Shown: positions 1,609 through 55,668 of the stretch, one piece after another
How positions within the stretch are numbered: the first letter of the stretch is position 1
How the letters are laid out: every line of letters starts with the position of its first letter
Origin: Persicimonas caeni
Lineage (GTDB): Bacteria; Myxococcota_A; Bradymonadia; Bradymonadales; Bradymonadaceae
Reading direction: 5' to 3'
Length of the DNA stretch: 64,000 bases
NCBI RefSeq assembly: GCF_006517175.1
Contig: NZ_CP041186.1
Span: 4,863,074-4,927,073, forward strand
Translations under genes and position numbers: made by a program
The notes under the pieces: generated by a model
Seen by the model: only the letters and a program-made list of their open reading frames with translations
Databases searched by the model: none
What the model was told of the DNA's origin: nothing

Positions 1609-1623
1609 GTGTCAGACACCGTG
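1609..1623 (+). repeat. Left end repeat of the REP transposase unit
   Basis: GTGTCAGACACCGTG occurs here and its reverse complement occurs with one mismatch at 3000-3014. The first 11 bases are themselves palindromic (GTGTC-A-GACAC). The two copies bracket the transposase gene. Confidence 0.7.
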
Positions 1624-1785
1624 TGGGTTAGCTTTCATGCGCATCACGGCGCGATCGGGGAGCCGATCTTCTGCCGCGTCTCCGCAAAAAATTTAGCTCG
1701 ATCACGCAACGAATATCCCCCTTTTGCCGAAAACCGTAATGAGGGCTGTAGACGAACCTTCATCTATTCACGGAGCACGGCACCC

Positions 1786-2748
1786 ATGGGACACCCGCTG
1801 CGAAATCAGGAAAAGGACGCCATTTACGAACTCGGCAACCGCACGCTGCACCAGATCTATGCGCTTTTGCCCGAGGAGCAGGTCAACGCCATCATCCTGG
1901 GACTGCTGTCCAAGTACGCCTGGATGTATGGGGTCGAGATCTTCGCGTTTTGCTTCATGTCCAACCATTTCCACATCCTGGCGCGCTGCCGCTCGCTGCA
2001 GATGCATCTGTTCATGCGCGACTTCCAGAGCCAACTGGCCAAAAAGATCAACAAGCTACGCAACCGCACCGGTACCTTCTGGGAGCGCCGCTACACCGCG
2101 ACCAAGGTCCTGACCGACGAGGCGATGCTCCAGCGTCTACGCTACATCGTGTGCAACCCGTCTGAATCGAACCTCGTGCACCACCCGAAGCAGTGGCCGG
2201 GCTTGTGCTCCTGGGACATCCACAAGAGCGGAAAGCCGATGGTGGGCGAGGTGGTCAACCGCAAGACGTACTGGGCGGAGAAGCGCAAGCGGAAAAACAA
2301 GGATAAGACCGAAGCCGAGCTCATCGAGATGGCCACCGAGCGGTACGCCCTCGAGATGGCCAAGCTTCCGCAGTGGCAGGGCCTCGACGACGAGGCGTAC
2401 CACCAAAAGATCGTCGACGAGTGTCACACACACGCTGGGGAACTCGCCAAACTGCGCACTGTGCCGTGCCCGGGGCCTAAGAAGGCACTCAGCGTGAAAT
2501 GGAGCGACTCTCCCAGGAAGCCGAAGAAGGCGCCTCGGCCGCTGTGTCACAGCGGCGATTTCAAGCAGCGCCAGGAGTACCGCGAAGACCGACGACTTCT
2601 CGTCGACCGGTACCGAAAGGCGGTCGGCAGGTGGCGCGAGGGCAAGTCGGATGTCGAATTTCCCGACGGCACCATTCCGCCGGGCCGCCAGTTCTGCGTG
2701 GGCGGCAGCTGCGATATCCGCCGTGAGCCGCCACCGTCGCTCAATTGA
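1786..2748 (+). CDS. REP-associated tyrosine transposase (Y1_Tnp family, RAYT-like)
   Basis: This 320-residue protein belongs to the HUH/Y1 transposase superfamily (PF01797), which nicks single-stranded DNA through one tyrosine and recognises hairpin-forming REP sequences. The metal-binding HUH motif is seen as CFMSNHFHIL. The segment LRYIVCNP about 70 residues later carries the probable catalytic tyrosine. The GTFWERRY block between them is also typical of RAYTs. The C-terminal half is longer than in minimal IS200-type enzymes and is rich in Lys/Arg. I chose the ATG at 1786 with a GGAG about ten bases upstream. Palindromic repeats on both sides fit a REP/RAYT unit, in which one domesticated transposase serves dispersed hairpins instead of being a simple insertion sequence. 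The gene appears intact. Confidence 0.88.
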   Translation: MGHPLRNQEKDAIYELGNRTLHQIYALLPEEQVNAIILGLLSKYAWMYGVEIFAFCFMSNHFHILARCRSLQMHLFMRDFQSQLAKKINKLRNRTGTFWERRYTATKVLTDEAMLQRLRYIVCNPSESNLVHHPKQWPGLCSWDIHKSGKPMVGEVVNRKTYWAEKRKRKNKDKTEAELIEMATERYALEMAKLPQWQGLDDEAYHQKIVDECHTHAGELAKLRTVPCPGPKKALSVKWSDSPRKPKKAPRPLCHSGDFKQRQEYREDRRLLVDRYRKAVGRWREGKSDVEFPDGTIPPGRQFCVGGSCDIRREPPPSLN

Positions 2749-51282: not shown

Positions 51283-53034
51283 ATGAATAACCGCAATGCG
51301 CGTTTGTACTCGTTGTTGGTCGCGTCACTGCTTGCCTTTGGCGCGCAACCCGCTTTTGCTCAGGAAGCCGAAGGGGCCGACGACGCCGCCGAAGAGACCA
51401 AGACCGAAGGTGAGCAGGCCGAAGAAGGCCAGGACGAGGCTGAAGAAGCCACCGAAGCCACCGAAGCCACCGAAGAAGGCGAAGACGCTAAAGAAGACGA
51501 GGACGGCGAGGACGACGAACCCGCCGAGAGCGCGCACGGAAGTTACGAGTGGAAGCCCTCTTGGGGTGGTGGTGTCGAAGCCGGCGTCTTCTTCAGCGAC
51601 CTCGATCGCTGGAACAGGAACCTGCTCGAAGACGAAGCGCAGTTCGACACGAGCACCATCTGGCACTTCGACGGCGCCGTCGAAGCCTCGTTCATCGAGG
51701 GCACGCGCCTGTCGGTGTTCGGAGGATTCACCACGCCGTTTGCCGACAACCCCTCCCTGACCGCCTGGTATGTGGGCCTCGAGCCGGCCTTCGCCTTCCG
51801 CCGCGACGAGTGGGAGATGGCCGTGGGCCTGAGCACCGGTGTGGGCGGGACCAACCTGTCGGTCGATCCCGACAAGAGCGCCGACACCAAGCTCGTGTTG
51901 CTGCGTCCGTTTTTGGAGGTCCGCCGCTATCTGAGCGAGAGCGCTGCGGTTTACGTGCGCGGCGGCTTCAACCAGTGGCTTCCGTTCGACGTGGCCACCG
52001 AGGGCGGCCTGCAATTCGGCGAGGACGTCCGGGATACCAACGAAGAGGAGCTCGACGAGGGCGGGGCTTACCTGGCCCTCGGCGTGCGCTTCGGTAGCTA
52101 TCCCGAGCACGTCAAGATCGTGCCCGACACCGACGGCGACGGCTTCCGCGACGACGTCGACAGCTGCCCCGAGAAGCCCGAGGACGAAGACGGCTTCGAA
52201 GATGAAGACGGCTGCCCCGAGCTCGATAACGACGACGACGGCATCAATGATGACGTGGACGAGTGTCCCAACAAAGCCGAAGACAAAGACGGCTGGAAGG
52301 ACGAAGACGGTTGTCCCGAGACCGATGATGACACCGACGGCGACGGCATCCTCGACAAAGATGACGAGTGCCCCGAGAAGGCCGAAGACAAAGACGGCTT
52401 CGAAGATGAAGACGGCTGCCCCGATCCCGACAACGACGAAGATGGCATCGCCGATGCCGACGACGAATGCCCCAACCAGAAGGGTGTCGCCGAGAAGAAC
52501 GGCTGCCCGCTCAAGCGCGTTGTCGTGACGCTCAAGCGGATTATGATCAACGAGAAGGTCTTCTTCGAGTACAACAAAGCTGACATCCAAGAGAAGTCGT
52601 TCGACCTGCTCAACGAGGTCGCCCAGGTCATCAAGGACAACCCGCGGATCAAGAAGATCGAGATCCAGGGCCACACCGACCACAAAGGCAGCGACGACTA
52701 CAACATGGAGCTGTCGGACAAGCGCGCGAAGTCGGTCCACGACTACCTGGTCGAGCAGGGCGTCGACGCCGATCGCCTGACCTCGAAGGGCTACGGCGAG
52801 ACCGACCCGCTGGTGCCGCTCGAAGAGGGCCAAGAGGACAAGGATGAGACCGAAGAGGCTGCGGCCCAAAACCGCCGCGTCGAGTTCGTCATCCTCGAGC
52901 AGGAAGACGTCAAGAAGGTCGTGCCCGAAACCGAAGTCCCCGAGGACGCCGCCGAGGTCGAAGAGACCGACGAGACGGTGCCTGTGAATGGTTCTGATGA
53001 CGAAAAGAAAGAGGATGACGAGTATGCCGAATAA
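51283..53034 (+). CDS. OmpA-family outer-membrane protein with TSP3 repeats
   Basis: The 583-residue protein begins with a signal peptide ending AFAQ, then a highly acidic stretch of Glu/Ala. A region of about 190 residues follows with beta-barrel character. About four thrombospondin type 3-like Ca-binding repeats (DxDGDGxxDxxDxCP pattern, about 285-405) come next. The C-terminal OmpA domain (about 425-545) has VFFEYNKADI, IEIQGHTDHKG and NMELSDKRAKSV, which bind peptidoglycan. A final acidic tail ends it. It anchors the outer membrane to the wall, the calcium repeats acting as spacer. The ribosome site is GGAG. The next gene overlaps its end by 11 bases. Confidence 0.93.
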   Translation: MNNRNARLYSLLVASLLAFGAQPAFAQEAEGADDAAEETKTEGEQAEEGQDEAEEATEATEATEEGEDAKEDEDGEDDEPAESAHGSYEWKPSWGGGVEAGVFFSDLDRWNRNLLEDEAQFDTSTIWHFDGAVEASFIEGTRLSVFGGFTTPFADNPSLTAWYVGLEPAFAFRRDEWEMAVGLSTGVGGTNLSVDPDKSADTKLVLLRPFLEVRRYLSESAAVYVRGGFNQWLPFDVATEGGLQFGEDVRDTNEEELDEGGAYLALGVRFGSYPEHVKIVPDTDGDGFRDDVDSCPEKPEDEDGFEDEDGCPELDNDDDGINDDVDECPNKAEDKDGWKDEDGCPETDDDTDGDGILDKDDECPEKAEDKDGFEDEDGCPDPDNDEDGIADADDECPNQKGVAEKNGCPLKRVVVTLKRIMINEKVFFEYNKADIQEKSFDLLNEVAQVIKDNPRIKKIEIQGHTDHKGSDDYNMELSDKRAKSVHDYLVEQGVDADRLTSKGYGETDPLVPLEEGQEDKDETEEAAAQNRRVEFVILEQEDVKKVVPETEVPEDAAEVEETDETVPVNGSDDEKKEDDEYAE

Positions 53035-54139
53035 CTCGCCGTACATCCTGATCGCCGCTGCGCTGGCTCTCGGGTTCGCCTCGTGCGAGCCGAAGGGCGG
53101 CGCCGGCGCCCGTGTCGACGAAGCCTCCGGTTCTGCGCCGGGGGCTTCGTCGTCTTCCGAACCTTCGGCCGAGCCGGCCGTGATGGAGCCACAGGGCTTC
53201 GTCCAAGAGGCCGAGCTGCGCAGCCTGCCCGGCGGTGTGGTCGACGGCGACACCTTCAAGGTGGTCGGCTATGCCGAGAGCCTTCGGCTGCTCAACATCA
53301 ACACCGAAGAGTTGCTGCACAAACGCGCCGACCGCGCCAAGGCCGCCCAGAACTGGAAGGCCTACCTTCGCGAGCAGACAAAGGGAGAAGGCTTCGAGAC
53401 CTTCGGCACCCCGATGGGCCAGGAGGCCAAGGAATGGGCCCGCCAATTCTTCAAGGGCGTCGATCCGAAGGCCGACGAAAAGAAGATCTGGCTCGAGTAC
53501 CAATCGGCCACGCGCACCCACGGCTTCTTCGACCGGCATCTGGTCTACGTGTGGGTCAAAAAGGACGGCGATTGGGTGAACTACAACCTCGAGGCCGTCC
53601 GGCAGGGCATGTCGCCGTACTACACAAAGTACGGCTACAGTGATCGACTCCACGACGAGTTTGTCCGAGCCGAGCGCGAAGCCCGCGAGCATAAGCGCGG
53701 CATCTGGGCTCCGGGGGCGAAGTCGTATCCCGACTACCCCGAGCGCATCGCCTGGTGGAATCGGCGGGCCGACCAGATCGCCAAGTTCCGCGAGCATTTC
53801 GACGACAACCCGCGCTTTGTCGACCTCGCCACCGACACCGCGTTCGCCACGCTGCGCACCCGCTTGGGCCGCCGTGTGGTTGTCTTTGGCGAGCCCACCT
53901 CGTTCAAAGAGCGCGGCGACCCGCAGCGCATCCGCATGAGCTACCGCTACCGGCGCGATTTTCCGATCGTCTCCTTCGAGCCGGTCGACATGACCAAGAG
54001 CGGCGTGAACCCCGACAAAGAGGAATTCATCTACGTCGAGGGCGTGGTCAGTATGTATCGCGGCGATCCGCAGCTTCGGTATGACGAGAAGAGTTGGATG
54101 CGGTCGGGAAAGGAGCCGCCGGTGGGGGAGGACAATTGA
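53024..54139 (+). CDS. Lipoprotein with a staphylococcal-nuclease-like (SNase) domain
   Basis: The 371-residue protein has a signal peptide with lipobox FASC and a Ser/Ala-rich linker. The SNase/TNase-homologous core follows from about residue 70: GGVVDGDTFKVVG, SLRLLNINTEE and, near the end of the fold, REAREHKRGIWAPG. This nuclease fold cuts DNA or RNA with calcium; an insertion of about 50 residues separates the core strands. A C-terminal region of about 140 residues is unassigned. Its ATG lies 11 bases before the end of the OmpA gene, so the pair is coupled, with GAGG ten bases upstream. It may act with the OmpA protein at the surface. Confidence 0.8.
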   Translation: MPNNSPYILIAAALALGFASCEPKGGAGARVDEASGSAPGASSSSEPSAEPAVMEPQGFVQEAELRSLPGGVVDGDTFKVVGYAESLRLLNINTEELLHKRADRAKAAQNWKAYLREQTKGEGFETFGTPMGQEAKEWARQFFKGVDPKADEKKIWLEYQSATRTHGFFDRHLVYVWVKKDGDWVNYNLEAVRQGMSPYYTKYGYSDRLHDEFVRAEREAREHKRGIWAPGAKSYPDYPERIAWWNRRADQIAKFREHFDDNPRFVDLATDTAFATLRTRLGRRVVVFGEPTSFKERGDPQRIRMSYRYRRDFPIVSFEPVDMTKSGVNPDKEEFIYVEGVVSMYRGDPQLRYDEKSWMRSGKEPPVGEDN

Positions 54140-54161: not shown

Positions 54162-54278
54162 GGCGCCTCGGTTCGCGAAAGCTTTCTACATGAGCAATTA
54201 AGGACATAGGGGCTGCGAGCCGAGACACATTCCCGGTATGCAACCCTTATGTCCTTAATTGCTCATGTAGCGGGCGCC
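54162..54278. repeat. Inverted-repeat element left of the ChaN-like gene
   Basis: Arms at 54186-54212 and 54244-54270 are inverted copies matching at 26 of 27 bases (core CTACATGAGCAATTAAGG). GGCGCCTCGGTTC precedes the left arm at 54162-54174, and GGGCGCC follows the right arm. A related element with opposite arm order lies at 55204-55286. Confidence 0.85.
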
Positions 54279-54300
54279 ACCTATCTGCAAGGCCCTCTCT

Positions 54301-55185
54301 ATGAAACCATCTATTTCAATCTTCCTCCTCTTCGCCATGCTCACCGCCTGCGCGACGGGGCCGCAGCCTACGTCAGAGCCTGCGGCTCAGCAGAAGCTCG
54401 CGCCAGGCATCTACGCCACCGACACCGGCGAGGAACTCACCGAGGAGCAGTTGCTCGACCGACTCGCCGAGCATCAGTACGTGGTGGTCGGCGAGCAGCA
54501 TGACGACGCGTGGCACCACGAGATCCAGGCGCGCGTCTTGCGTGGCTTGGCTGAGCGGGTCGACGAGGTGGCGCTTGGCATGGAGATGTTCCAGCGGCCG
54601 TTTCAGGGGCCGCTCGACGCCTATGTCGCCGGGGAGATCGACGAAGAACAGATGCTCGAGCAGACCGAGTGGGCCGAGCGCTGGGGCTTTGGCACTGAGA
54701 TGTATCGCCCGCTGTGGCTCTTCGCGCGTGAGCAGGCCGCGCCCATCATCGCGCTGAACGCGCCGCGCGAGCTCTCGCGCAAGATCGCCGAGGTGGGGCT
54801 CGAGGGGCTGGACGAGGCCGAGCGCTCGGAGATTCCCGAGCTCGATCTCGATAACCAGGCGCATCGCAAATACGTGCGCCGGGCCTTCGAGCAGCACGAC
54901 ATGGAGATGAGCGACGAGCGATTCGAGCGCTTCTACACCGCCCAGGTCGTCTGGGACGAGACGATGGCCAACACCGCCGTCGAGTTCGTGCACAACCGCG
55001 CTGATGTCGACACGATGCTCATCGTCGCCGGCGGCGCCCACGCCCACCGCGGTTTCGGTATCCCACCGCGCATCGAGCGACGCACCGACGCCGACGTCGT
55101 CACCCTCCAACCGGTCACCGACCCTCAATCGGCCACCATGGAGCAACTGGGCGTGGCGGCCGACTTTGTGTGGATCAAGGAATGA
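54301..55185 (+). CDS. ChaN-like haem-binding lipoprotein (DUF399/Cofac_haem_bdg family)
   Basis: The 294-residue protein fits PF04187 (ChaN-like). A lipobox LTAC lies near residue 17. The conserved VVVGEQHDDAWHHEIQARVL contains the residues for iron or haem binding, followed by VALGMEMFQRP and, near the end, LIVAGGAHAHRGFGIPPRIE. In characterised relatives two monomers hold haem, suggesting iron handling or a related role at the envelope. The length fits the family. Its start lies 30 bases after a long inverted repeat, and a second such repeat begins 18 bases after its stop, so the gene sits between two palindromic elements. No close SD is visible upstream. Confidence 0.85.
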   Translation: MKPSISIFLLFAMLTACATGPQPTSEPAAQQKLAPGIYATDTGEELTEEQLLDRLAEHQYVVVGEQHDDAWHHEIQARVLRGLAERVDEVALGMEMFQRPFQGPLDAYVAGEIDEEQMLEQTEWAERWGFGTEMYRPLWLFAREQAAPIIALNAPRELSRKIAEVGLEGLDEAERSEIPELDLDNQAHRKYVRRAFEQHDMEMSDERFERFYTAQVVWDETMANTAVEFVHNRADVDTMLIVAGGAHAHRGFGIPPRIERRTDADVVTLQPVTDPQSATMEQLGVAADFVWIKE

Positions 55186-55203
55186 AGGCGTAGCAAATCG
55201 CAA

Positions 55204-55286
55204 CCCCTATGTCCTTAAATGTCTATGTAGAGGGCGCCTCGGTTCCTGAAGAAGGCAATCTACATGAGCAATTAAGGACATAAGGG
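55204..55286. repeat. Inverted-repeat element right of the ChaN-like gene
   Basis: Arms at 55204-55230 and 55260-55286 are imperfect inverted copies of the same 27-base sequence, arranged in the opposite order to the left element but joined by GGCGCCTCGGTTC (55233-55245). The left arm is the more diverged one (TTAAATGTCTATG against TTAATTGCTCATG). Confidence 0.8.
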
Positions 55287-55413
55287 CTACGCATCGTCAC
55301 GTTTACTTGACTGGGACCGAGCCAGCTACTAGGTTCGCCGCCCGCGTTCGGCTCGCCTCCAATCCCTGCACGGGCGGCCGCACCACTGATCGAGCACACG
55401 AATAGAGGCCCAT

Positions 55414-55668
55414 ATGGCACGCGTAACTGTCGAAGATTGCCTGGAAAAGGTCGAAAACCGCTTCGCGCTGGTGATGATGGCAACCCAGCGCGCCCGCGAA
55501 ATCCGCAAGGGCGCTCCGCGCATCTTCCCGTCGGGCAACAAAGAGCCGGTGCACGCGCTCCGCGAGATCGCCGCTGGTTTCGTCAAGTTCGACGACCGCA
55601 GCAAGCGCAAGCTTTCGCGCGTTCTGTCGCTTCCGGAGCTCGGCGAAGAGGGCGAAGAGACGGTTTGA
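55414..55668 (+). CDS. rpoZ: RNA polymerase omega subunit
   Basis: The 84-residue protein matches the small omega subunit that helps assemble the beta-prime subunit. [33 protein letters not shown] is the characteristic N-terminal block. GAGG lies before the ATG. Length is typical. It converges with the conserved hypothetical gene ending at 55680. Confidence 0.95.

Follow-up and report, generated by a model that had tools for sequence, protein, structure and literature searches.

Inverted doublets of REP sequences have been described as REPINs (PMC3116915), and transposase genes that are flanked by their own repeats are also known (PMC2817692). A survey of TnpAY1 transposases (PMC6006769) reports, in the sections of it that we draw on, canonical REPs with subclasses 2.2, 2.4, 2.5, 2.7 and 2.8, and atypical structures with subclass 2.6 and class 3. 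The same sections describe subclass 1.2 as low-copy enzymes with a Y---Q--HH motif that generally lack IS200 end structures and come mostly from Cyanobacteria and Bacteroidetes, and name no REP partner for them. Our search of the open-licence literature returned no paper on REPs in Myxococcota, so an earlier report is possible.

We analysed a 64-kb window (G000:C1:4863074-4927073) of the Persicimonas caeni genome, a single contig of 8,047,206 bases, in which a gene for a ChaN-like lipoprotein (chaN) lies between two elements made of inverted arms (Table 1). Both elements had been predicted from the sequence, with their arms in opposite order, and both are real: the arms pair, GGCGCCTCGGTTC has an exact match in each element (at 54162 and 55233), and the arm sequence has three matches in the window against 0.00 expected, far above chance. 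The left element pairs over 40 nt (54186-54225 with 54231-54270, 85% complementarity) and folds as RNA with -75.8 kcal/mol (z = -10.1). In the right element the order is reversed (inverted arm, outer block, arm); 55199-55231 pairs with 55259-55291 at 79% complementarity, and the predicted fold has -44.9 kcal/mol (z = -4.6). While arms and order stand as first described, the arm is about 32 nt long rather than 27, the left element extends through 54294 rather than ending at 54278, with a second outer block (CGGGCGCCACCTATCTGCAAGGCC) after its right arm, and one of the four arms (55199-55230) has diverged. The end of the left element (window 54285-54300, GCAAGGCC) places AAGG a few bases upstream of the chaN ATG, and the inserted element may thus supply the Shine-Dalgarno sequence of chaN.

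Table 1 Features at the chaN locus (window positions) and the associated transposase gene.
Feature	Position	Strand	Remarks
SNase-domain protein, upstream neighbour	52988..54139	+	synteny anchor
Left element, outer block, REP-like, inverted type	54162..54185	-	GGCGCCTCGGTTCGCGAAAGCTTT
Left element, arm	54186..54217	+	CTACATGAGCAATTAAGGACATAGGGGCTGCG
Left element, variable loop	54218..54238	.	
Left element, inverted arm	54239..54270	-	GTAG at its end
Left element, right outer block	54271..54294	+	CGGGCGCCACCTATCTGCAAGGCC; end 6 bp upstream of chaN ATG
chaN, ChaN-like lipoprotein, enclosed gene	54301..55185	+	PF04187, E = 7.4e-66
Right element, diverged inverted arm	55199..55230	-	GTAG at its end
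Right element, outer (REP-like) block	55231..55259	+	common to its two arms
Right element, arm	55260..55291	+	CTACATGAGCAATTAAGGACATAAGGGCTACG
RNA polymerase omega subunit (rpoZ), downstream neighbour	55414..55668	+	synteny anchor
Y1/HUH (TnpA-type) transposase, 162 aa	G000:C1:4646506-4646991; L064:2699-3187	minus (in L064)	inside close pair of family elements

The genome-wide search for the arm that the original prediction proposed finds it in many unrelated places, as pairs and singly. At up to three mismatches the host genome has at least 84 matches (reversed-pattern control: 0), and a wider pattern gives at least 159 (about 160; control: 1), which merge into at least 72 loci; these figures were obtained by pattern and model searches and are minimum values. 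The element has a regular plan: a 24-nt outer block, CTAC and a 32-nt arm, a loop of about 21 nt, the inverted arm with (G)TAG, and a further outer block. A regular copy spans 85 bp between the outer ends of its arms, the loop being variable. A covariance model built from 25 such copies recovers full-length palindromes with a best E value of 3.2e-35 (150 of 2150 candidates scored), and the inverted doublet can form a single long hairpin, as expected of a REPIN. REPs have a GT(A/G)G foot immediately followed by a short imperfect palindrome that pairs well; at the foot of the arm here TAG is retained and the first G varies (GTAG, TTAG, ATAG), so that the motif is strict only as TAG. Beyond each (G)TAG the outer block of about 24 nt reads NNGGCGYTNC....CTGCAAGGCC or, flipped, ..ACCGAGGCGCC, and it folds weakly and unevenly. 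Conservation falls away about 24-28 nt outside TAG, which indicates that the ends of the element are defined. By itself, the 24-nt block has at least 319 matches in the host genome (control: 16), and it recurs in several palindrome families whose inner arms differ, as though families had exchanged ends and arms.

Larger units containing these palindromes were also seen. Four units of about 260 bp, each with a palindrome and an outer block, stand in tandem at L182 (G000:C1:6260470-6262070), with similar arrays at L181, and a repeat of about 250-320 bp, found in four copies (L036, L037, L072 and L075) that are mostly 89-97% identical, contains the family element as an extended hairpin.

The family is high-copy, dispersed and extragenic, as REPs and REPINs are: 46 of 54 loci are clearly intergenic by gene prediction, the neighbouring genes being co-directional at 29, convergent at 13 and divergent at 4. 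The remaining eight overlap ORFs, and these appear to be cases in which the longest-ORF rule over-extended the start. None of 56 related genomes has a true match; a single copy at three mismatches in G012 was treated as chance.

We considered whether the repeats are retained as RNA or DNA signals, such as terminators, mRNA stabilisers or 5'-leader regulators, their spread then not being mainly selfish. Their predicted hairpins are very stable, most copies lie downstream of genes with few between divergent ones, and the left element ends just 6 bp ahead of the chaN start, all of which would suit such a role. However, covariation in the hairpin is low, with compensatory change in 3 of 27 pairs and a covariation term of -0.29 of -28.4 kcal/mol, a pattern more in keeping with a DNA element whose arms decay once inserted than with a conserved RNA. 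No Rfam family matches at gathering score, the weak matches being eukaryotic miRNA models, and the family is absent from relatives which have the same gene order. We consider retention as signals quite unlikely to be the main explanation; a host role may have been gained after insertion.

chaN, the gene between the two elements, is single copy in the host genome and is syntenic without arms in five relatives (G003, G011, G013, G016 and G018): four have the order OmpA-SNase-chaN and one has OmpA-chaN-rpoZ-hyp-PEGA-TPR. The intergenic gap before chaN in relatives is 33-367 bp (three measured), and that after it 518 bp (one relative). Judged by this gene order, chaN is an ordinary vertically inherited gene, neither part of the element nor a mobile cassette. 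The original prediction had also suggested a cassette carrying chaN, and had named vertical inheritance of the gene without the arms as evidence against it, which is what the relatives display. Its other suggestion, a pair of insertions, is supported by the genome-wide dispersal of the arms.

Some features of the pair could nonetheless be read as marks of one mobile unit, a composite transposon or gene cassette comprising both elements and chaN. The opposite arm order makes the bracket symmetrical. Close pairs of elements are enriched across the genome, with four gaps below 1.3 kb where 0.57 are expected (P = 0.003) and ten below 3.5 kb where 1.9 are expected. A minority variant of the arm, GA at arm positions 7-8, is present in 11 of 104 arms, including all three detected at chaN. 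But the same arms bracket other genes too, a point the original prediction had raised: other close pairs enclose an FAA-hydrolase gene, and hemB beside other genes of a haem gene group (gene names from reading translations). Together with the single chaN copy and the armless neighbourhoods in the five relatives, this makes a common cassette extremely improbable. The excess of close pairs and the common GA variant at chaN instead point, weakly, to local copying. If the repeats spread as proposed below, brackets like the one around chaN are a product of their insertion and do not indicate gene mobility.

The host genome has 26 Y1_Tnp genes, and one of them, encoding a 162-aa protein (Table 1), is flanked by 207-nt direct repeats of exactly the chaN-type element. 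A scan of 20 other Y1 loci found the arm at none of them. The 162-aa transposase aligns to the TnpA proteins of ISDra2 and ISHp608, with the HUH motif and the catalytic Tyr117 conserved, and the two His and the Tyr are invariant among its paralogues. These are divergent single copies (33-47% identical; six matches in the host genome). Palindromes of a second arm family (at least 99 arms) flank the paralogue at 668084, and copies of a third (at least 25 arms) surround that at 6666507. Each family thus has one transposase gene among its own repeats, as in REP/REPIN systems. At the third paralogue (L098, G000:C1:6664516-6668872), the upstream family-3 copy is much more distant than at the others. 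Three more paralogues have direct or inverted repeats on both sides.

This bracketing extends beyond the host. With bracketing defined as repeats of 40 bp or more no farther away than 600 bp, 17 of 22 homologues from the host and related genomes are bracketed and 5 are not, compared with 32 of 2000 random intervals and 11 of 2400 (0.5-1.6%). Two homologues on Bacteroidota plasmids with Y---Q--HH are bracketed as well, and a classical TnpA adjoining TnpB is not. Such repeats could alternatively arise from a Y1 gene inserting into or beside a repeat. The sharp borders and inverted ends of about 24 nt would also be in keeping with ordinary MITEs with terminal inverted repeats, moved by a putative DDE transposase, with the Y1 genes merely lying among them. 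Against this stand the three Y1 paralogues, each with an arm family of its own around it, and the homologues in other genera and on Bacteroidota plasmids, which have unrelated repeats on both sides; we regard such MITEs as an unlikely source of the family.

A RAYT- or MITE-like origin had been guessed at the outset, essentially correctly, since copies of the repeat are spread over the whole genome and two of them enclose a Y1 transposase gene. A canonical RAYT was rejected as the enzyme of the element: the longer RAYT-like genes have no arms nearby. One of these lies in the window itself (1609-2748, plus strand) and encodes a 379-aa Y1 transposase-like protein which scores 62 bits against NF047646 (REP-associated tyrosine transposase), below the cut-off of 80. 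With it, the host genome has about 20 long Y1 genes of this kind, a high copy number for a RAYT-like gene.

As is the case with REPINs or BIMEs and their RAYTs (TnpA_REP; PMC3116915, PMC2817692), inverted doublets of short palindrome-like blocks here form one long hairpin in high-copy, extragenic elements, and a Y1 gene lies between copies of the repeat, with one transposase to each family. Unlike in those systems, it is the inner arms rather than the outer REP-like blocks that are most conserved, TAG faces inward (a 'TT' dimer) and GTAG is not strict, and the spacer is long, conserved and palindromic. TT dimers of GTAG-tagged REPs (PMC3733652) also have GTAG inside the dimer, and some of their spacers have complementary ends; their spacers are usually variable, however, whereas in the present family it is the spacer that is conserved best.

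The enzyme differs from class 2 RAYTs. The tyrosine motifs of four paralogues are YIAHQKDHH, YVVHQKDNH, YVAKQKKRH and YVDKQKEHH, and none of them matches the YI--NP listed for subclasses 2.4-2.8 in the relevant part of the survey's table (PMC6006769). Y---Q--HH with HUH is exact in the transposase of the element and in the paralogue at 1381367, and one H is changed at 668084 and 6666507. In this motif, and in being short, low in copy number and near IS200 TnpA, the enzymes resemble subclass 1.2 as those sections of the survey present it (PMC6006769); they differ in occurring in Myxococcota-type genomes and in being bracketed by dispersed palindromes. An autonomous IS200/IS605 element (subclass 1.1), with identical copies and hairpin ends, was not found: the paralogues are single copies that have diverged, and the NCBIfam IS200 score of 47.4 is below the cut-off of 55. 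Class 3, again as described in those sections (PMC6006769), likewise has several related genes per genome, each beside high-copy atypical structures without GTAG, but its motif is YV--EQ and its structures have a CnGA foot, which we did not see here. By analogy, then, the system would work like a REPIN-RAYT pair but is not a class 2 RAYT, because its enzyme has the Y---Q--HH of subclass 1.2.

We think it likely that the chaN elements belong to a REPIN-RAYT-like system, in which non-autonomous hairpins would be mobilised in trans by their own Y1 transposase and the chaN pair would represent separate insertions. The two elements belong to a dispersed palindromic family of REPIN/BIME-like build, in which two inverted REP-like outer blocks face a long conserved inner inverted repeat; the family would be non-autonomous, and its copying would rely on folding as single-stranded DNA. 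The repeats are probably copied by the small single-strand-DNA transposase that they enclose, the TnpA-type protein of G000:C1:4646506-4646991, whose gene is the only scanned Y1 gene enclosed by the chaN-type repeat. In the manner of IS200/IS605 and REP systems, this enzyme would bind folded single-stranded DNA, cut close to the feet of the hairpin and re-insert it elsewhere, acting in trans on hairpins, probably at replication forks. chaN would already have been present when one copy inserted upstream and one downstream of it, and the later of the two may have been copied locally from the earlier.

More tentatively, and with slightly less than even confidence, we suggest that TnpA subclass 1.2 in general comprises transposases of dispersed palindromic repeats. 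The subclass would then be a second lineage of REPIN-RAYT type, derived from the IS200 side and separate in origin from class 2 RAYTs; each paralogue would drive one arm family of its own, and the outer block would be common to the families. If so, a subclass of transposases that is said to have no IS features would gain a DNA partner, and three related enzymes matched one to one with three palindrome families in a single genome would make the rules of recognition directly testable.
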